Position numbers and translations under genes: made by a program
Notes under the pieces: model-generated
What the model was told of the DNA's origin: nothing
Databases searched by the model: none
What the model saw: the letters and a program-made list of their open reading frames with translations, nothing else
Part shown: piece after piece, positions 15,964 to 46,913 of the stretch
Numbering within the stretch: position 1 is the stretch's first letter
Layout of the letters: each line of letters opens with the position of its first letter
From: Verrucomicrobiota bacterium
GTDB lineage: Bacteria > Verrucomicrobiota > Verrucomicrobiia > Opitutales > Opitutaceae
NCBI GenBank assembly: GCA_016871775.1
Contig: VHCI01000002.1
Location: 1 to 64,000 of the forward strand
Direction: 5' to 3'
DNA length: 64,000 nt

Positions 15964-17169
15964 ATGGCCCTTTCCCGCCGTTACTTCCTCGCCTCCGGAC
16001 TCGCCGCTGCCGCCGCCCCCGCCTTCGCGGGGCAGCCCTCCCGCAACATCGGTGAGGTGCGGATCGACGTCGATACCGCGACCGTGCCGGTGCGCGTCTC
16101 CGGCGCCACGCCGGATCTGCAGTCCTTGGCGCTCACGGCCTTCCGCGCGCACGGCCGTTACCGGCTGGTTTCGGCCGGGCAAGCCTTTGACCTGAAGTTT
16201 TCCCCCGCGGGCGCCAATCAGGTGCGGGTGGAGATCACCCGGGGCGCCGCCGCGACTCCCGTGCACGCTGAGGCGGTGGCCGGAGCCACGCCCCGCCAGG
16301 CCCTGCTTAAGGCCGCGGATATCGCGGTGGTGAAGACCAACGGCCTCGGCCTGCGCGGTTTTTTCACCGCCCGCCTCGCCTTCGTGTCGCGGCGCGCGGG
16401 TCGCGGGGACATCTACACCTCTGACCTTTTCCTTGGCGAGGCCCGCCAGATCACCCGGGACAACGCCCACGTGCTCAGTCCCCGCTGGTCGCCGGACGGC
16501 TCACGCGTCATTTACACCAGCTACTTCCGCTCCAACGCGCCCGATGTCTTCGTTTCCAATGTCTCCAGCGGGGCGCGCGAGACCCTGATCAGCTTCCGCG
16601 GCACCAATAGCGGCGCCCGGTTCAGCCCCAGTGGTCAGCAGCTCGCCGTGGTGATGACGGGCGAGGGGTCCTCCGAGATCTACGTGACTAACGCCCAGGG
16701 CCGCCAACCTTCGCGCAAGACCCGTTCGGACGCCGTGAAGTCCTCCCCCTGCTGGTCGCCCGACGGCAGCCAACTGTTGTTCGCGATGGAGCCTGGTCCG
16801 CAGCTGTACCAGATGCAGGCAACGGGTGGGGTGCCCCGCCGCCTCGCGCTGAACCTCGGCACCTACGCCGCGGAGCCGGATTGGAGCCGCACGGACCGCC
16901 ACAAGATCGCCTGCACCGTCCGCGCCGGGCGCCAGTACCAGATCGGCGTCTTCGACCTGGCTAAGAGCGCGGGCAAGGTCGCCTCGAAAGCTAGCTTCGA
17001 CGGAGTGGAGCCTTCGTGGCTCGCCGACGGCCGCCACCTCGTCTACACGGCGCGCGACCGGACCTCGAGCGTCCTGTGCGTGCTCGACACGGAAACCGGC
17101 AACAGCACGCGTCTCGGCACGCCGGACTCCGCCGCGCTGCAGGGGTGCGTCTGGACCCCCGAAATTTGA
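15964..17169 (+). CDS. TolB-like WD40-type (PD40) periplasmic protein with Tat-like signal
   Basis: MALSRRYFLASGLAAAAAPAFA signal; repeated PRWSPDGSRVIYTSY, ARFSPSGQQLAVVM, PCWSPDGSQLLFAME motifs. Confidence 0.85.
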   Translation: MALSRRYFLASGLAAAAAPAFAGQPSRNIGEVRIDVDTATVPVRVSGATPDLQSLALTAFRAHGRYRLVSAGQAFDLKFSPAGANQVRVEITRGAAATPVHAEAVAGATPRQALLKAADIAVVKTNGLGLRGFFTARLAFVSRRAGRGDIYTSDLFLGEARQITRDNAHVLSPRWSPDGSRVIYTSYFRSNAPDVFVSNVSSGARETLISFRGTNSGARFSPSGQQLAVVMTGEGSSEIYVTNAQGRQPSRKTRSDAVKSSPCWSPDGSQLLFAMEPGPQLYQMQATGGVPRRLALNLGTYAAEPDWSRTDRHKIACTVRAGRQYQIGVFDLAKSAGKVASKASFDGVEPSWLADGRHLVYTARDRTSSVLCVLDTETGNSTRLGTPDSAALQGCVWTPEI

Positions 17170-17211: not shown

Positions 17212-18528
17212 TTGGGAATGAATCGTTTTGCGGGCCTGCTTTCCGGGCTGCTGATCTGGGCCGGCCCGGTCCTCCCTCGGCCGGCAGCCGCCCCAAGCCC
17301 GGCGGACCCGCGGGAGGGGGCGCCCGTATTCCAGACCGCGGCGGACCGGGAAACTGGCCTGGTCGCGGCGATGGTGGCGCGCATCGAGCTGATGCCCCAA
17401 GTGGCCGCGTGGAAACACCGCCGGGGGCAGCCTGTGCTCGATATTGACCGCGAGGCGGCGGTGTTGCGCGTCTGGCGAGCCGAGGCCGAGGCGCTGGGAC
17501 TGGCCTCCCACTCGATGGAGGAGTTTCTCCGGCTCCAGATGGCGTGGGCGCGGCGCCGTCAGGAGGGGCTCGTCACCAAATGGCGGGCGGCTGGCGTGCT
17601 CCCGGCAGAGCCTCCGGACCTGAATACCGTGCTGCGGCGACGGCTGGACGATGCGGGCCGTGAACTGCTGGCGGCGGCTTTCCTAGCGGCCGGGGAAGCC
17701 CTGCCGGCTTCGGCCGACCCGTGGGACCGGCTGGCGGGCATCGCCGGGCTCGCTCCGGAGGAACTCCGCGAACTAAAGGCGGCGCGGGTCGCCTTGCGCC
17801 GGACGGGGACCGCCACGCTGGCGGGCTTGCGCCGCGTCGGGGTCCTCCGCGTGGGCACCACCGGCGATTACGCGCCCTTCAGTTCTGATGCCGGAGGCGT
17901 GCTGCGGGGGCTCGACATTGAACTGGCGAGGGATCTCGCGGACGCACTAGGCCTGCAACCCGTGTTTGTGCCCACGTCCTGGTCGGGCCTGATGGCGGAC
18001 TTGCGCGCGCACCGCTTCGACCTAGCGCTCTCTGGCATCACCGTGACGGCGGAACGCGCCCGGGAGGCGGCCTTCTCCGTCGCCTACCTCGAGGATGGCA
18101 AGACGGCCATCACTCGCCGGGTGGACGCGCCGCGGTTCGGTTCCCTAGCCGCGATCGACCAACCCGGGGTGCGCGTGATCGTCAACCCGGGCGGGACCAA
18201 CGAGCGCTTCGTCCGGGAGCAACTGCGCCGGGCGGAGATCGTGCTCCACCCGGATAACCGAACGATCTTCGTCGCCTTGGCCGAGGGCGGGGCGGACGTG
18301 ATGTTCACCGACGGGATCGAGGTCCGCTTGCAGGCGCAGCGCGATTCCCGCCTCGGGGGATCTCTCGTTGAGCCCTTGACGCGGGCCGGCAAGGCGGTGC
18401 TACTGCCGCGGGGCGCGGAGTGGCGTGCGGCCGTGGACGCTTGGCTGGGCCCCTTGGTGGCCTCGGGCGCGGTCGCGGAACGGCTCGAGCGGGCCCTTGC
18501 GGAAGCAGCGGGCGAGAAGCGGTTTTGA
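17212..18528 (+). CDS. Secreted chorismate mutase (AroQ gamma class) fused to cyclohexadienyl/arogenate dehydratase (PheC-like, SBP family 3 fold)
   Basis: N-domain: LVAAMVARIELMPQVAAWKHRRGQPVLDIDREAAVLRVWRAEAEALGL...FLRLQMAWARRRQ; C-domain: LRVGTTGDYAPFS...LRGLDIELARDLADALGLQPVFVPTSWSGLMADLRAHRFDLALSGITVTAERAREAAFSVAYLEDGKTAI...VRVIVNPGGTNERFV...DNRTIFVALAEGGADVMFTDGIE; N-terminal signal peptide. Confidence 0.88.
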   Translation: MGMNRFAGLLSGLLIWAGPVLPRPAAAPSPADPREGAPVFQTAADRETGLVAAMVARIELMPQVAAWKHRRGQPVLDIDREAAVLRVWRAEAEALGLASHSMEEFLRLQMAWARRRQEGLVTKWRAAGVLPAEPPDLNTVLRRRLDDAGRELLAAAFLAAGEALPASADPWDRLAGIAGLAPEELRELKAARVALRRTGTATLAGLRRVGVLRVGTTGDYAPFSSDAGGVLRGLDIELARDLADALGLQPVFVPTSWSGLMADLRAHRFDLALSGITVTAERAREAAFSVAYLEDGKTAITRRVDAPRFGSLAAIDQPGVRVIVNPGGTNERFVREQLRRAEIVLHPDNRTIFVALAEGGADVMFTDGIEVRLQAQRDSRLGGSLVEPLTRAGKAVLLPRGAEWRAAVDAWLGPLVASGAVAERLERALAEAAGEKRF

Positions 18529-18562: not shown

Positions 18563-20224
18563 ATGCTGCAGTCGCTCCGCATCCGGAATCTGGCCCTGCT
18601 CGAGGCGGTGGAACTGGAGTTCACCCCAGGTTTTATCGCCGTCACCGGTGAGACTGGCGCCGGCAAAAGCATCCTGCTCGGCGCTCTGAGCCTGCTGGCG
18701 GGGGAACGAGCGGACAAGACCGTGATCCGGCAGGGCGCGCTCGCGGCCGAGGTGGAGGCGGTCCTGCATTTTGCGACCCCGGAGCGCCTCAACGCGGTGC
18801 TCGAGGAACTCCAGCTGCCGCCGTGCGAGGAGGGCACGCTGCTCCTGCGCCGCACGCTCCCGCGTGACAAGGCGCCCCGGATCACCGTCAACGGCAGCCT
18901 GGCCACCCTCGCGGCGCTGCAGCGCCTAGGCGAGGTGTGGATCGACTTCCACGGACCCAGCGAGCCGCGGCGTCTCCTGCGGGATGACTGCCAGCGGGAG
19001 CTGCTGGACCTGTTCGGCCGCCACGCTCAGGACCTGACGGCGTATGGCGAGGCCTTCGCGCGCTGGCGCGAGCGGGCGGCCGAGCAGCGGCGAGTGGCGT
19101 CCGAGGCGCGGCTCGCGCCCGACCAGATCGACTTCCTGCGGGCCCAGCTCGCTCGTTTGGATCAGCTGGAATTGACGGCCGAGGCCGTCGAACAGTTGGA
19201 ACGCGACCACCAGCGGCTGAGTCGCGCGCAGGAGTTGTCGGGTTTGACGGAGGGGCTGGGGCAGGGCCTGGCCGGCGAGGACGGAATCCAGCCCCGGTTT
19301 GCGCCCCTGTTGCGCTTGGCGCGGCAACTGGAGGAACTCGATCCGGCGAGCGCGCCGCTCGCCGGCCGGCTGGCCTCCTCGGCCGCCGAGCTGGCGGACC
19401 TGGCGGAGGAGTTCGCGGCCTTGGGTCAGACCCTTAACCTGGATCCCGAACAGGCGCAGGAGATCGAGCAGCGGATGGCGACCTGGCTGGAGGGGCGTCG
19501 CCGTCATGGCGGTGACTTGGCGGCGGTGCTGGGGGCCCGCGAGGAGATGCGGCGTCGTCTGGAGGTACAAGGGGATGTCGAGGGCGTGCTGGCCCGGTTG
19601 GAGCGGGAGGCGGCGGAGGCCCTGCGGGAGGCCCGGCGGCTGGCCCAGGCGTTGCGGGTCCGGCGGGAGAAGGCGGCCCGGGAACTGGTGCGGACGGCGG
19701 GCCGCGCGATCTCCCGGCTGGGTTTCGCCAAGGCGGATTTCCAAGTGCGGGTGACCTCCCTGCCGGAACTGGGCCCGGCGGGCGACTCCGGCGCCGAATT
19801 CCTCTTCTCCCCGAATGTCGGCGAGGCGCCGCTGCCCCTCAGCCGCATCGCTTCCAGCGGCGAACTGGCCCGGGTGATGCTCGCCCTGAAGACCGTGCTG
19901 GCGGATCTGGACGGCGTGCCGTTGCTGGTCTTCGATGAGGTGGATGCCAATGTCGGCGGCGAGATTGGCAAGGTGGTGGGCGAGAATATGGCGGGCATCG
20001 CCCGCGCGCACCAGGTGTTGTGCGTTACCCACCTACCCCAAGTGGCGGCTCAGGCGGCGGCCCACTTTGTGGTCACGAAGGACCAGAGCGGGGAACGCGC
20101 GGTGGTCCGCATCGAGCCGATCCACGAGAGCCGGAAGGCACGCGTCTTCGAACTGGCGCGGATGCTTGGCGATCGCCAAGCCCGAAGCGCCCAGCGCCAC
20201 GCCGAGGAGCTGCTCGGCGCCTGA
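18563..20224 (+). CDS. recN: DNA repair protein RecN
   Basis: MLQSLRIRNLALLEAVELEFTPGFIAVTGETGAGKSILLGALSLLAGERAD; LLVFDEVDANVGGEIGKVVGENMAGIARAHQVLCVTHLPQVAAQA. Confidence 0.97.
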   Translation: MLQSLRIRNLALLEAVELEFTPGFIAVTGETGAGKSILLGALSLLAGERADKTVIRQGALAAEVEAVLHFATPERLNAVLEELQLPPCEEGTLLLRRTLPRDKAPRITVNGSLATLAALQRLGEVWIDFHGPSEPRRLLRDDCQRELLDLFGRHAQDLTAYGEAFARWRERAAEQRRVASEARLAPDQIDFLRAQLARLDQLELTAEAVEQLERDHQRLSRAQELSGLTEGLGQGLAGEDGIQPRFAPLLRLARQLEELDPASAPLAGRLASSAAELADLAEEFAALGQTLNLDPEQAQEIEQRMATWLEGRRRHGGDLAAVLGAREEMRRRLEVQGDVEGVLARLEREAAEALREARRLAQALRVRREKAARELVRTAGRAISRLGFAKADFQVRVTSLPELGPAGDSGAEFLFSPNVGEAPLPLSRIASSGELARVMLALKTVLADLDGVPLLVFDEVDANVGGEIGKVVGENMAGIARAHQVLCVTHLPQVAAQAAAHFVVTKDQSGERAVVRIEPIHESRKARVFELARMLGDRQARSAQRHAEELLGA

Positions 20225-20254: not shown

Positions 20255-22609
20255 TCAGCGCGGAATGGAGGGGTGGGTCGAGCCCCGATGGCCCCGCCAG
20301 AGCCAGCGCGCCAGCGCGGGCATCACAACGATGGCGCCGACCATGTTGACGGTGAACATAAAGGTCAGCAGCAGGCCCATATCGGCTTGGAACTTGAGGT
20401 CCGAGAAGACCCAGGTACTCACTCCGATCGCGAGCGTGAGCCCGGTGAACACCACGGCGGCGCCCGCGTCCTTCAAGCCGCAGAAGAGGGCGTCCTCGAA
20501 CGGCGCCCCCGCCTTCAGCTCTACATGGAGGCGGGCAAAGATGTAGATCCCGTAGTCCACGCCGATCCCCGCCCCGAGGGCCACGACCGGGAGCGTCGAC
20601 GGCTTCAGGCCGATGTCGAGGGCGACCATCACTCCGTAGCCGAGGTAGCTCACGATCGCGAGCGGGGTCACGATGCAGAGCGCGGCGCGGACACAGCGGA
20701 AGGCGATCAGGCAGAGCGTAATGACGGCCCCGAAGACCCAGTACAGGATGGGTTTCTCCGCGGCGGCCACCACCTCGTTGGTCGCGGCCATCACGCCGGC
20801 GTTGCCGCTGGCCAGCTGGAACCGGGCCTGGGGCGAGTCGTGCCGGGCGGCGAATTCCTGCACCGCCGCCGTCACCTCGGTCAGCGTCTCTGCGCGGTGG
20901 TCGCGCAGGAAGATGAGGACGGGCAACACGGAGGAATTCGCGTTCAGCAGCCCGGTCGTGGTCTCGACCGGCGCGACGGCCTGCGCGAGGGCGTCGCGGT
21001 TGCGGGGCAGGATCCGCCACTTGAGCGATCCCTCGCAGAACCCCGCGTTAACTCCCTTTGCCACCCCGGCGAGCGAGACCACGGACTGCACGCCCGGCAG
21101 TTCCCGCATCCGCCCCTCGAACTCGTCCACCAGCGTCATCACCCCGTGGTCGACGCCCGCGTCGGGCACGGTCTCGACGATCACGCTGAGTAAATCCACT
21201 CCGATGGAGAATTTGCCCGCGATCAGCTGGCTGTCCTGGTTGTAACGGGAATCCGGCCGGAGCTCGGGGACGCCGGCCTGGGTGTCCCCGATGCGCAGCT
21301 CCTTGGAGAAGTGCACGGCCCACGCGCCGATGCCGAGGCTGACCAGCGCCACGGCGGCCGCCGGGCCAGGGGTCAGCGTGCGCGCGAGCCGTCCCCACGT
21401 GGCCTCGCCACGCTGGCGCCGGGCGGCGACCCAATCGGCGTAGGAGGGAGGCAGACGGAGGTAGGAAAGCAGCAGCGGCAGCAGGAAGAAGTTGGTGAGC
21501 GTAATCACGCTCACCCCTAGGCTGGCGATCAGCGCGAGCTCCTGAATGGTCGGGATTGGGATCACCATAATGGTGAAAAAGCCGATCGTGTCCGTGAGCA
21601 GCGCGATGATGCCCGGACCGATCAGCTGGCTGAAAGCCGCGCGCGCGGCCGCGGGGCCGTCCTGGCCCTTGAAGACCTCGTTGCGGAAGGTGCAGATCTT
21701 CTGCACCCCGTGGCTGACGCCGATGGCGAACACCAGAAACGGCACCAGAATGGAGAACAGGTCCACTCCCATCCCGAGGGCGGACACGATCCCCAGTTGC
21801 CAGATGACCGCCACCAGCGAGCACACGATGGGGGCGGCGGCCATTTTCCAGCGGCCCGCGTAGTTCCAGACCAGCAACGTGGTGACGACCAGCGCGACGG
21901 CGAACATCAGACGGATGTTGTCTGCCGCGGCGGTTACGTCCCCGGCGATCTGCGCGAAACCAATGATGTGCGCGGTCACCCGCCCGCCGGTCGCGGTGGC
22001 CACGCCCTCCCGGATCCGCTCCAGCCCCGCGGCCACGGTGGCATAATCGACACGCTGTCCGGTCGCCGGGTTGGTCTCGAGCAATTGGGCGCTGACGACC
22101 GCCGCGGTGAAATCGTGGGCCACCAACTGCCCGAGCCGGCCTGACTTGAGGATGTTGTCGCGCACGCGGGCGAAGGCGGCCTGGGTCGGCTGGAAATCCG
22201 CCGGGATCACGTTGCCGCCCGCGAAGCCGTCCTCGATCACCTCGATGAAACGGACGTTCGGCGTGAAGAGGGACTGCACCTGTGGTCGATCGACCGCCGG
22301 GAGGAAGGTCACCTCGTCCGTGACCCTCCGCAGCTGGACGAAAAACTCCGGGTTGAAGATGTCCCCCTCCCGGGCGACCAGGGCGACCAGGATCCGGTTG
22401 GCGCCCCCGAAGGCCGCCTGGTGCTTGACGAAGGTCTGGATGTACGGGTGCCCGCGGGGCAGGGACTTGTCGAAGCTGGCGTCGACGCTGACACCGAGCG
22501 CCAGCCAGAGCATCCCGGCGGTGAGCGCGGTGAAGAGCGCCACCAGCACGTTTCGGTGCCGGAACATCCAGACCGTGAAACGGTCGAGGCGCGCGGGGCC
22601 CGGGCTCAT
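20255..22609 (-). CDS. RND superfamily (MMPL-type) transporter
   Basis: 784 aa with two repeated 6-TM blocks; VVVTTLLVWNYAGRWKMAAAPIVCSLVAVIWQLGIVSALGMGVDLFSILVPFLVFAIGVSHGVQ; GAGIGVDYGIYIFARL. Confidence 0.9.
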   Translation of the reverse strand: MSPGPARLDRFTVWMFRHRNVLVALFTALTAGMLWLALGVSVDASFDKSLPRGHPYIQTFVKHQAAFGGANRILVALVAREGDIFNPEFFVQLRRVTDEVTFLPAVDRPQVQSLFTPNVRFIEVIEDGFAGGNVIPADFQPTQAAFARVRDNILKSGRLGQLVAHDFTAAVVSAQLLETNPATGQRVDYATVAAGLERIREGVATATGGRVTAHIIGFAQIAGDVTAAADNIRLMFAVALVVTTLLVWNYAGRWKMAAAPIVCSLVAVIWQLGIVSALGMGVDLFSILVPFLVFAIGVSHGVQKICTFRNEVFKGQDGPAAARAAFSQLIGPGIIALLTDTIGFFTIMVIPIPTIQELALIASLGVSVITLTNFFLLPLLLSYLRLPPSYADWVAARRQRGEATWGRLARTLTPGPAAAVALVSLGIGAWAVHFSKELRIGDTQAGVPELRPDSRYNQDSQLIAGKFSIGVDLLSVIVETVPDAGVDHGVMTLVDEFEGRMRELPGVQSVVSLAGVAKGVNAGFCEGSLKWRILPRNRDALAQAVAPVETTTGLLNANSSVLPVLIFLRDHRAETLTEVTAAVQEFAARHDSPQARFQLASGNAGVMAATNEVVAAAEKPILYWVFGAVITLCLIAFRCVRAALCIVTPLAIVSYLGYGVMVALDIGLKPSTLPVVALGAGIGVDYGIYIFARLHVELKAGAPFEDALFCGLKDAGAAVVFTGLTLAIGVSTWVFSDLKFQADMGLLLTFMFTVNMVGAIVVMPALARWLWRGHRGSTHPSIPR

Positions 22610-23541
22610 CGGAGGATCACGGGAGTGGCGCCTGCCTCGCCGAGCGCAAGCACGCCGCCGTCGGGGAGCTCAATCAGCTCGGCCACCGCGGTTGACGGCG
22701 CCCCCGGCACGAGGCTGAAGGTGCGCCCGTAGTCGCGGCTGAGGGCGAGGGCCCGGGGCGGCCCGCCGATGAGGATAAGGTTGGAACGCAGGCGGAGCCC
22801 CGTCGCGAGCAACCCGACGACCGGAGGGGCGATCTCCTGCCAGGTGTCCCCTTCGTCGGCGGAGCGGTAAAGGTGTCCGCGCAGTCCGTGCGCGATCAAG
22901 GTCCGGCGGTCGAGCGGGAGGACCCCGTGGAAGGAACCCTCGTACGGAGCCCTCAGCGGAACCCAGTTCAACCCCTCATCCCGGGAGCGGAGCAGGGTGC
23001 CCGACTCACCGGCGAGGAACAGCGTGCCGGCCGCGCTGCGGCTGATGCGGTTCAAATGGGCGTCGCCTGCGAGAACTTGGCGGCGCTCCCAAGTCGCTCC
23101 CCCGTCGCCCGTGGAGACGTAAAGCCCGTAAGCGCCGACCGCGATGGCGTGCCGGGAGTCCAGCGCGAGCACGTCGAGGAAGGAATCCTGCAGGTTTTCA
23201 CCTTGGAACTGGCGGGTCCAGATGGCGCCGCCGTCGCGGGTGCCAAGCACCAGCGCATCGTGACCAACGGCCCAGCCGATCCAGGGAGCGCCGTCGGCGG
23301 TCGGCGGGGCGAGGGCCACCCCGGTGAGAGTGGCCCGGGTGGGGGATTCCACCCGGCGCCAGCCGGCGGTGGGAGCGCGAGAGACCCAGATGCTCCCCCT
23401 CTCCCCGACGACCACGGCGACGGAGCCGCTGACGGCGCCGTCGAGCAGGAGACCCTGGGGCAAGGAGGGCTCCCCGGCGTCCAGCAACGCGGGGAGGATA
23501 CAGGCGGCGAGGCTGGCCGCGAGGGGAGCGCGGGAACGCAT
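22606..23541 (-). CDS. YCF48/HCF136-like beta-propeller secreted protein
   Basis: Signal peptide; repeats such as VVGERGSIWVSRAPTAGWRRVESPTRATLTGVA, GDGGATWERRQVLAG, GESGTLLRSRDEGLNWVPL; ATGA overlap with downstream RND gene. Confidence 0.82.
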   Translation of the reverse strand: MRSRAPLAASLAACILPALLDAGEPSLPQGLLLDGAVSGSVAVVVGERGSIWVSRAPTAGWRRVESPTRATLTGVALAPPTADGAPWIGWAVGHDALVLGTRDGGAIWTRQFQGENLQDSFLDVLALDSRHAIAVGAYGLYVSTGDGGATWERRQVLAGDAHLNRISRSAAGTLFLAGESGTLLRSRDEGLNWVPLRAPYEGSFHGVLPLDRRTLIAHGLRGHLYRSADEGDTWQEIAPPVVGLLATGLRLRSNLILIGGPPRALALSRDYGRTFSLVPGAPSTAVAELIELPDGGVLALGEAGATPVILR

Positions 23542-23548
23542 CCCGGCT

Positions 23549-24901
23549 TCAGCGGATGCCGTCGCGCCGCAGGGCCTCGGGGTTAAAGTCGGCCGGGGTG
23601 CGCTTGATGCTGAAGTCGTACATCCGGTTCTCGTTGTCGAGGCCGACGGCGAGGTAGCGCCCGTTCTGCAGGTCGTGGTGGACCTCGAGGGTGCTCCAGA
23701 AGGCCTGCACATCGTAATAATTGATGCAGTGGGCCTCGGACACGCGCCACAGCTGTCCGCGGCCGTCGTACTGGTCGGCCGCGAGGATCTGCCAAGAATC
23801 CTCGTCGATGTAAAAGGTGCGGCGGCTGTAGAGGTGGGAGGTACCGGTCTTGAGCTTGGCGTCGACCACCCAGACGCGGTGCAGCTCGTGGCGGGTCAGG
23901 TCGGGGTTGATGTGGTTGGGCTTGAGGACGTCGCCGACCTTCACGCCCTTGGCGTGGAGCTTGTAGGAGTTGTAGGGGACGAGCATCTCCTTCTTGCCGA
24001 CAAGCGTCCACTCGTAGCGGTCGGGCGCGCCGTTGAACATGTCAAACTGGTCGCTGGTGCGCTGGCCGTCCGCGGCAGTGCCGGGGTTGTCATAGGCCAC
24101 ATTCGGGGCGCGGGTCACGCGGCGGCGGCCGGCGTTGTACACCCAGGCGCGGCGGGGCTCCTTGACCTGGTCCATCGTGTCCTGCGCGAGGAGGATGGTG
24201 CCGGCAAGGCGGGCCGGGGCCGTGACGGCCTGCTTGAAGAAGATCAGGGTGTTGGAGGACTCGAGCTCGTTGGCGGTGATGTCGGGCCGGGCGTAGTTGA
24301 AAAGGAACTCGTCCTCGAACTTAACCAGCTGGAAGCCGCCGCCGCGCTCGACCGCCGCCTGATCGATGTAGCGGGTCGCGGCGACGCCGCGGAAGCGGGT
24401 GAGTGAGTTCCAGAGGACCTCGAGCCCATTTTGCGGGAGGGGGAAGGGCGCGCCAACCGTCGCCCCGGCGATGCCGTTACCGCCCGAGACCAGCGTGGCG
24501 CTGGTGGCGTTCTGCCGCGTGGCGTCATAGACCCGCTGCGGATTGGAGGCGCTCCGGCGAGTGGGGTAGACGGTCAGCTTGTACGTCGGATGGGCCTGAA
24601 GCAGCGCCAGTTGCCCAGGGGTGAGCTGGGCTTGGTACTGAGCCGCGTTGGCCGCGGTCACAGTGAAGCGGGGCTGGTCGGCCGCGAATGGGTCAGGATG
24701 GTGCATCCCGGGCTGGTAGCCGGCGGGCGGGTTGGTGATGCCGCCGGTCCAGGCCGGGATCGTGCCGTCGGCGTTGCCCTTGGCTTCAGCGCCGAGGGGC
24801 GTAAGGTCTTGGCCTAGGCGCGCGGCATCGGCGGCGGAGACGGCCGCGCAGGCGGCGCTGGCCGTGGCGGCTAGGAGGAGGGCGGAGGAGAGAACGTTCA
24901 T
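23549..24901 (-). CDS. DUF1329 domain-containing protein (outer-membrane lipoprotein-sorting-like)
   Basis: AARLGQDLTPLGAEAKGNADGTIPAWTGGITNPPAGYQPGMHHPDPFAADQPRFTVTAANAAQYQAQLTPGQLALLQAHPTYKLTVYPTRRSAS, hallmark DUF1329 N-terminus. Confidence 0.92.
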   Translation of the reverse strand: MNVLSSALLLAATASAACAAVSAADAARLGQDLTPLGAEAKGNADGTIPAWTGGITNPPAGYQPGMHHPDPFAADQPRFTVTAANAAQYQAQLTPGQLALLQAHPTYKLTVYPTRRSASNPQRVYDATRQNATSATLVSGGNGIAGATVGAPFPLPQNGLEVLWNSLTRFRGVAATRYIDQAAVERGGGFQLVKFEDEFLFNYARPDITANELESSNTLIFFKQAVTAPARLAGTILLAQDTMDQVKEPRRAWVYNAGRRRVTRAPNVAYDNPGTAADGQRTSDQFDMFNGAPDRYEWTLVGKKEMLVPYNSYKLHAKGVKVGDVLKPNHINPDLTRHELHRVWVVDAKLKTGTSHLYSRRTFYIDEDSWQILAADQYDGRGQLWRVSEAHCINYYDVQAFWSTLEVHHDLQNGRYLAVGLDNENRMYDFSIKRTPADFNPEALRRDGIR

Positions 24902-24921
24902 GGGACGGGGTCCGTGGGGGT

Positions 24922-26877
24922 TCAGAAGGAGTATTTGAGGGTGGTCGCGACGTAATCGCGGTCCGACAGCAGGTTGAATTTGCCGGCGCCGGTGAAGTTC
25001 ACGTAGCGCAGCTCGAGGGACCAGGCGTTGCGGTAGGTGAATTCGACCGCGACGTTCACGCTCTTCCGGCCGGCGATGAAGTTGCCGAGCGGGAGCGGGG
25101 TGACGCCCTTGACGTCGTGGGTGAAGGCGAGGGTGGGCTGAAGGTTCACGTTCGGCAGCACGTTGTTGTAGTCGAGGCGCGCCAGCAGCTGGTAGCCCCA
25201 GGAGAACGGATCCGCGAAAGCGGACGTCGCAGTCGCGGGCACCTGCGGGAAGCCGGCCGTGTTCAGCGCGGCCTGCGAGCCGCCGGTGAAGGTGCCGGGG
25301 CCGTCGTAACGAAGGACATCCTTCGATGGCAGGTTCGCCCACACGCCGCCAACCTCGCCGAGGACGGTCAGCTGCTGGGAGCCGAGGGTCGGCCCGAAGA
25401 CCTTGGTCAGCGTCGACTGCGCGGTCCAGACGCGGTGCCGGCGGTAGCCGCTGATCTCGCGGCCATACTGGCCGAGGTAGTTGCCCAGCTGGTTGGCGGA
25501 CGCGAACTGCGGCGCGAGGGAGGAGAGCGTCGCGAACAGGAGCTCGACGTCATCGATCTGCAGCGGGACATCATTCTTGAGCGAAACCTCGCCCTGCCAG
25601 GAGATGCCGGAGCCGCCCAGGGAGGTGTTGAAGCTGAGGCCGAAAAGGTTGAGGTCCTCGGCGTACTCCGTGAAGTAACGCCCGGAGGCGGCCGCGGTGA
25701 GCAACGCGATCTGGCGGGCGCCGGCGATTGCAGCCTGGACCTGCGGGCTCTGGAGGGTGGCGATCTCGACGGGCGTGAGGGTCGTCGGCGCGAGGGAGGA
25801 CTTCACGATTATCTGGAAGATCGCGCCCGCCTGGGCGGAGGCCTGCGCGGCCGGCAAACCACCGCGCATGAAGGCGGCGGTCAGGGGGCCGGTAAGGTTG
25901 GTGTCGATCGGCGTGGTGGGGGTGCGGGCGCTGATGATCGGGGAACGGCTGTTGTAGCGCGCGTAGTACAGGCCGAACTCGGTGTTGTTGAGGCCCTTGG
26001 CCAGGATGCGGGAGGAGACGCCGAACTGGTTGTAGTTGCCGGCGTCACGATCCTCGGCCCGGGAGATGCCGCCGATGGTGCTGCCCTGGTCGGCGATGCT
26101 GCCGAAGCCGAGCCAGACCGTGCGGCCGCCGCGGGTCGCGAAGTCGTTGGTCGAGAAGTAGGTGCCGGCGGGCTCCAACTCGTTCCGGCGGAATTCCAGC
26201 AGCCAGAAGGGCTCTACCGTGATCTCGGGCGTGAGGCCGATCGAGGCCTTCACCATATTCACCGGCAACAGGGCTTCCTTCAGCTCGGAGCCGGGTACCC
26301 GCAGCTTCGACAGGTCGGCCGCGTTGACAACGTTGATCCCGTTGGGGATAAAGGTGCTCTCGCCCAGACTCAGTACCTGCCGGCCGATGCGGAGGTCGAA
26401 GGGCAGGCCGCCGGCGACGTCCGTCTTCACCCGGCCGTAGAGATCTAGCAGCTGCGCGCCCTTGACCGTACGGTCGAGGGCCTGATCCGACAGCGGTGTG
26501 CGCAGGGTCTGGTCGGCCTTGAAGTCGTTGTACCAGTAGCCGCGGGCCAGCGCCCCGAAGTTGCCGTAGCGGACCTCAAGGTCGTGGTTGCCCTTGAGCA
26601 GCTGGGAGACCCATCCCTTGCCGTAGTTGAGGTTGCCGTCGTCGGAGTTGACCGAGTTCTGCGCTCCGGGGACGCCTTGGAAGGCGCTCGTGAAGCCGTA
26701 CATATTCCGGTCCGGGTTCTGCAGCCGGTAGAGGCCGCCAAAGGAGAGCGTGGAGTCGAAGCTCACCTTGAGCTCGCCCTCGGAGAGCTGGAGGGCGGAG
26801 GCGGACGGCAGCGCGGCGGCAAGGCCGAGGCCGAGGACGAGGCCGGAAAGGATCCGGCGGGGCGGGGGCAGGTTCAT
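24922..26877 (-). CDS. DUF1302 domain-containing outer-membrane beta-barrel protein
   Basis: LKVSFDSTLSFGGLYRLQNPD...NYGKGWVSQLLKGNHDLEVRYGNFGALARGYWYNDF; C-terminal ...SDRDYVATTLKYSF. Confidence 0.9.
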   Translation of the reverse strand: MNLPPPRRILSGLVLGLGLAAALPSASALQLSEGELKVSFDSTLSFGGLYRLQNPDRNMYGFTSAFQGVPGAQNSVNSDDGNLNYGKGWVSQLLKGNHDLEVRYGNFGALARGYWYNDFKADQTLRTPLSDQALDRTVKGAQLLDLYGRVKTDVAGGLPFDLRIGRQVLSLGESTFIPNGINVVNAADLSKLRVPGSELKEALLPVNMVKASIGLTPEITVEPFWLLEFRRNELEPAGTYFSTNDFATRGGRTVWLGFGSIADQGSTIGGISRAEDRDAGNYNQFGVSSRILAKGLNNTEFGLYYARYNSRSPIISARTPTTPIDTNLTGPLTAAFMRGGLPAAQASAQAGAIFQIIVKSSLAPTTLTPVEIATLQSPQVQAAIAGARQIALLTAAASGRYFTEYAEDLNLFGLSFNTSLGGSGISWQGEVSLKNDVPLQIDDVELLFATLSSLAPQFASANQLGNYLGQYGREISGYRRHRVWTAQSTLTKVFGPTLGSQQLTVLGEVGGVWANLPSKDVLRYDGPGTFTGGSQAALNTAGFPQVPATATSAFADPFSWGYQLLARLDYNNVLPNVNLQPTLAFTHDVKGVTPLPLGNFIAGRKSVNVAVEFTYRNAWSLELRYVNFTGAGKFNLLSDRDYVATTLKYSF

Positions 26878-41282: not shown

Positions 41283-46913
<5,631 letters not shown>

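Follow-up and report, generated by a model that had tools for sequence, protein, structure and literature searches.

Exported fusions of an AroQ-gamma chorismate mutase (CM) and a cyclohexadienyl dehydratase (CDT) have been described in both domain orders, with kinetics and crystal structures, by Stocker et al. 2023 (PMC10520331). The published examples come from nine proteobacterial species, CM-CDT only from gammaproteobacteria and CDT-CM only from betaproteobacteria, a split by class that was read as two independent events (PMC10520331). Both enzymatic activities have been demonstrated in vivo and in vitro, with a Km under 7 µM for chorismate and a CM kcat/Km of 1-3 x 10^6 per M per s, and neither AfCMCDT nor JbCDTCM is inhibited by Phe or Tyr (PMC10520331). 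The characterised fusions give no structural or kinetic sign of channelling and no gain from being fused; every published host also has a cytoplasmic CM-PDT, and a signalling role, or chorismate sensing, has been proposed (PMC10520331).

The window, by which we mean the whole 64,000-nucleotide stretch of DNA analysed, belongs to a lake bacterium of the Opitutaceae (Verrucomicrobiota), in which one protein, predicted to be exported, should convert chorismate to phenylpyruvate in two steps. According to the open reading frame and its translation, the fusion gene occupies positions 17218..18528 of the forward strand, stop codon included, and encodes 436 aa from an ATG start. A preliminary description had put the reading frame at 17212-18528. 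The frame is real and all the motifs quoted from it are present in the translation, but its TTG start at 17212 lies two codons upstream of the ATG at 17218, which is the better choice because the close relative G009 opens with the same MNRFAGLL. A chance reading frame, or separate genes, was rejected on account of the single open frame, its preservation in relatives and the strong matches to PDB entries.

Four parts can be distinguished in the protein, all encoded on the forward strand. A putative Sec signal peptide (17218..17295, about residues 1-26, MNRFAGLLSGLLIWAGPVLPRPAAAP, with a predicted cleavage site) is followed by an AroQ-gamma chorismate mutase domain (17338..17688, residues about 41-157), recognised from CM_2, TIGR01806, the alignment and an all-helical model. 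A helical linker (17689..17808, about residues 158-197, with model helices at 168-172 and 180-191) is the fastest-evolving stretch of the mature protein and leads into a PheC-like cyclohexadienyl dehydratase domain with a periplasmic-binding-protein fold (17809..18516, residues about 198-433). Export is predicted from the hydrophobic N-terminus with its Ala-rich end, the low pLDDT of residues 1-33 and homology to exported enzymes.

Profile scans of the two halves, a check that the preliminary description had proposed, identified both domains. Pfam CM_2 matches residues 48-116 with 44.2 bits (gathering cut-off 27) and SBP_bac_3 matches residues 210-425 with 87.4 bits (gathering cut-off 26.4). 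The NCBIfam AroQ-gamma model TIGR01806 gives E 2e-17 but, with 63.2 bits, does not reach the curated cut-off of 74.15, and no other model in the NCBIfam scan of the window protein exceeds its cut-off either. It is therefore plausible, as was expected earlier, that an automatic annotation would overlook the CM half. An identity as an amino-acid ABC transporter substrate-binding protein was rejected, since all transport models score far under their cut-offs and the adjacent genes are TolB-like and RecN.

In phmmer searches of the PDB, the published fusions 8cq4, 8cq6 and 8cq3 come first, followed by PheC (3kbr/5hpq). JbCDTCM (8cq4) matches at E 7e-72, AfCMCDT (8cq3) at E 2e-62 and PheC at E 5e-61, and AfCMCDT, covering residues 45-419, is the best full-length match. 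With the CM half alone as query, the chorismate mutases 6cnz and 5ts9 rank ahead of 8cq3, and the best models for this half are those of AroQ-gamma chorismate mutases (TIGR01806, PRK09269).

An AlphaFold2 model built on ten CM-CDT sequences has a mean pLDDT of 87.6 and a pTM of 0.83, with low confidence in residues 1-33. As with the profile scans, structure prediction had been suggested beforehand, and its outcome favours the fusion: the top two Foldseek matches in the PDB are two entries of the known fusion AfCMCDT, 8pnj and 8cq3, over about 385 columns. The CDT half of the model fits PheC 3kbr at a TMt of 0.91. The whole-chain TM against 8cq3 is about 0.5, and therefore the domain placement differs or is uncertain; the different domain orientation may reflect model uncertainty.

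In the alignment, the residues equivalent to the CM site are R55, K66, V73, D75, R78, V82, A111, R112, Q115 and R140. The exported AroQ-gamma chorismate mutases (MtCM, 6cnz, 5ts9) share the CM fold and the core Arg/Lys/Asp/Arg with the window protein, but are single-domain, and the MtCM site has Gln76, Thr105, Glu106 and Glu109 (PMC10520331). At these four positions, the published fusions carry Val, Ala, Lys (Ser in one case) and Gln (PMC10520331). The window protein follows this fusion pattern with Val for Gln76, Ala for Thr105 and Gln for Glu109. The Glu106 position is Arg, a conservative change from the Lys of most published fusions and one common to all Opitutaceae CM-CDT proteins examined, and the Ile67 position is Val.

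All nine active-site residues of the Pseudomonas aeruginosa PheC (PaCDT; 3kbr, 5hpq) are kept in the dehydratase half (Y218, W255, K295, N323, T327, N328, N347, T364 and E368), and they are retained across the Opitutaceae CM-CDT proteins examined. The CDT domain of PheC is about 50% identical to that of the window protein, with the same active site; unlike the window protein, PheC is single-domain, has a cysteine pair and lacks a CM. The CDT cysteine pair occurs in every fusion studied by Stocker et al. 2023 (PMC10520331). The window protein contains no cysteine at all, so the pair is missing. The alignment shows the same loss throughout the window clade and in G023, G025 and G209, and retention of the pair in G011, in the gammaproteobacterial proteins and in the CDT-CM proteins; the disulfide cysteines are thus absent from most Opitutaceae CM-CDT proteins. 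Because the family is defined by the fusion architecture and the catalytic residues, we regard this loss as variation inside the family, and the cysteine-free forms make it possible to ask whether CDT depends on the disulfide.

Of the described systems, AfCMCDT from Aequoribacter fuscus (8cq3, 8pnj; PMC10520331) is like the window protein in its order of CM then CDT, its nine CDT residues and its Val/Ala/Gln changes in the CM site, and it is exported. The two are about 37% identical in the structural alignment. The window protein differs from it in having Arg and not Lys at the Glu106 position, in lacking the CDT cysteine pair and in its phylum, Verrucomicrobiota. JbCDTCM and DsCDTCM from Janthinobacterium and Duganella (8cq4, 8cq6; PMC10520331) are exported and have the two activities predicted for the window protein, and their CDT half scores high in phmmer, but their domain order is opposite.

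The fusion gene lies between two genes on the same strand. A TolB-like beta-propeller gene (15964..17169, forward strand; PD40 above its cut-off, TIGR02800 below) ends 48 bp upstream and is a possible operon partner, and recN (18563..20224, forward strand) starts 34 bp downstream. The fusion recurs with conserved synteny in five further close genomes. The order mrp (reverse strand), tolB-like, fusion, recN is kept in the close sub-clade wherever the contigs extend far enough, the recN neighbour being kept in a sub-clade of six genomes. Within the sequence available on each side of recN, up to 1.5 kb, the other members of the genus have no match to the fusion or to the tolB-like gene. The neighbours give no hint of function: the window's sub-clade has the TolB-like gene and recN there, and the other fusion loci are flanked by different genes.

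Both halves of the fusion are under purifying selection. Comparison with four close relatives puts dN/dS at 0.14-0.19 in the mature protein (0.18-0.23 in CM, 0.08-0.15 in CDT); the signal region has a higher value in three of the four comparisons. Against G009, the tolB-like and recN neighbours give 0.085 and 0.076, so that the fusion gene has about twice the dN/dS of its neighbours (0.19 vs 0.08). This faster evolution, together with the lost cysteine pair, the Arg at the Glu106 position and the descent of CDT from amino-acid-binding proteins (PMC10520331 and references therein), could be taken to indicate a sensor or binding protein, in which at least one domain would still bind chorismate, prephenate or phenylpyruvate but no longer catalyse a reaction. 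We consider this improbable, given that the nine CDT residues persist across the Opitutaceae CM-CDT proteins examined, that the CM site keeps most residues of the fusions assayed as active and that dN/dS is low in both halves. An AroQ-gamma and PheC-type fusion with a putative signal peptide, as first described, is supported, and judged from its sequence it is very likely active in both steps.

The search for homologous fusions in Verrucomicrobiota, also proposed at the outset, found them in 15 of 252 Opitutaceae genomes. Eleven of these belong to the window's genus (27 genomes): nine carry CM-CDT (G000, G008, G009, G011, G014, G019, G021, G023 and G025, that of G014 being split over two contig ends) and two carry CDT-CM. 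The first CDT-CM gene (G012, L031 3700-4971, reverse strand) matches JbCDTCM 8cq4 over its full length at E 7e-146; the second is in G013 (L032 5063-6604, reverse strand). The remaining four genomes are in another genus, g40, and a sixteenth match, in G926, is confined to the CDT half. The other 16 of the 27 genomes in the window's genus yielded no fusion, not every one of these absences being certain, because several genomes are incomplete.

Contamination as the source of the CDT-CM genes was rejected. Nearly every member of the genus has a relative, 59-77% identical, of the NIPSNAP gene adjacent to the fusion gene of G012, and the G013 contig also carries genes that, by inspection, are DUF1501-like and VPDGG-anchor-like. 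By tetranucleotide correlation, a rough measure, both contigs are closer to the window (0.68-0.76) than to a gammaproteobacterial contig (0.34-0.54).

Across the phylum, 388 genomes were sampled. Leaving aside the window's genome and G209, the fusion query matched CDT alone in this sample, and TIGR01806 matches lay in other frames or proteins. A further 369 genomes were sampled from the class to which a gammaproteobacterial fusion belongs. At the threshold applied, two of them carried the fusion, namely G432 (on which the sample was centred) and G449, and G704 gave a match of CDT type. The G449 protein (L074) is a divergent CM-CDT fusion, about 43% identical both to the window protein and to L030. 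A search of plasmids gave no record with 80% query coverage, and the matches listed were confined to the CDT half. In one distant family, G198 (L059/L063) and G318 (L060/L069) each encode an AroQ-gamma CM and a PheC-like protein as two distinct polypeptides, whose genes in G198 are far apart on one contig. Other Verrucomicrobiota have single-domain PheC-like proteins (L042-L058) with Leu at the Thr132 position (NPGGLNE) and most other CDT site residues kept; many have lipoprotein-like N-termini, and their substrate may differ.

In the CDT tree, the ten CM-CDT rows from Opitutaceae cluster together (99/93), and the two Opitutaceae CDT-CM rows fall with the betaproteobacterial CDT-CM proteins and P. 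aeruginosa PheC (93/90). A topology that unites every Opitutaceae fusion is rejected with the CDT domain (p-AU 0.008), but the short CM domain does not reject it (p-AU 0.097). A clade of Opitutaceae and betaproteobacterial CDT-CM proteins is not rejected for CDT (p-AU 0.301) and is recovered for CM (93/88). Opitutaceae and gammaproteobacterial CM-CDT proteins as one clade are rejected in neither domain (p-AU 0.475 and 0.108), nor is a single clade of all fusions rejected for CDT (p-AU 0.09). The deep placements are unsure because the gammaproteobacterial rows have long branches.

These sequence comparisons suggest that the window's genus likely acquired the fusion on two separate occasions, by transfer or by repeated fusion. 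From the trees and the distribution it follows that domain order does not, on a wider view, keep to the division seen between proteobacterial classes; this genus breaks that division and adds a second phylum. The fusion itself is not new, since kinetics and structures were published in 2023 for exported fusions of both orders (PMC10520331). What is new here is the presence in another phylum and the occurrence of both orders inside one genus; the open-access literature searched contained no account of the fusion from Verrucomicrobia. The protein is of an ordinary kind and is well supported as an enzyme; as an extension of a rare family it is mildly informative.

Taken as a whole, the protein is very probably an exported bifunctional periplasmic enzyme that converts chorismate via prephenate to phenylpyruvate at independent sites, in a role other than housekeeping. 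Once the signal peptide is removed, the mature protein would reside in the periplasm, where the helical AroQ-gamma domain would rearrange chorismate to prephenate and the PheC-like domain would dehydrate and decarboxylate prephenate to phenylpyruvate. The two active sites probably work separately, with no channelling between them. The channelling of prephenate put forward earlier is unsupported, because the tested relatives show no structural or kinetic sign of it (PMC10520331). The escape from cytoplasmic feedback control suggested along with it would agree with the absence of Phe or Tyr inhibition in AfCMCDT and JbCDTCM (PMC10520331).

The same genome encodes an ordinary cytoplasmic CM-PDT-ACT protein of 393 aa with CM_2, PDT and ACT domains (G000:C4, L080 2406-3584). 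For this reason, and because the fusion ends at phenylpyruvate with no transaminase attached, the idea of a one-protein route to phenylalanine is not supported. A hidden overflow pathway making phenylalanine in the periplasm, as proposed for AroQ and PheC of P. aeruginosa, would involve the same two activities in the same compartment, and the tested relatives lack feedback inhibition (PMC10520331). Given the cytoplasmic CM-PDT-ACT, the TolB-like and RecN genes in place of any adjacent aminotransferase, and the 16 of 27 genus members in which the fusion was not found, we think such a pathway more doubtful still than a sensor. That the AroQ-fold half acts on isochorismate as a PchB-like lyase, or on another chorismate relative, is hardly credible: PchB is indeed an AroQ-fold enzyme and the site is changed relative to MtCM, but the best models are of AroQ-gamma chorismate mutases, the fusion partner uses prephenate and the closest solved relatives are chorismate mutases.

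The best reading of the role is a periplasmic chorismate-to-phenylpyruvate converter outside housekeeping phenylalanine synthesis. The leading but unproven candidates for its purpose are the scavenging and the sensing of external or leaked chorismate, sensing being the proposal of Stocker et al. The fusion may have been acquired at least twice, in opposite orders, in one Opitutaceae genus, by repeated fusion or cross-phylum transfer, which would tentatively point to strong recurring selection for periplasmic conversion of chorismate to phenylpyruvate, for example in sensing or consuming chorismate leaked by other cells. The close genomes with CM-CDT, CDT-CM or neither form a natural comparison for the enzyme's purpose, and bear on why cells place shikimate-pathway enzymes outside the cytoplasm.

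Elsewhere in the window, a cluster on the reverse strand (20255-26877) contains MMPL transporter, YCF48-like, DUF1329 and DUF1302 genes. Further along the same strand (41283-46913) lies a gene for a UvrA-like protein of 1876 aa, roughly double the normal size, which contains UvrA interaction and DNA-binding domains as well as several matches to ATPases.
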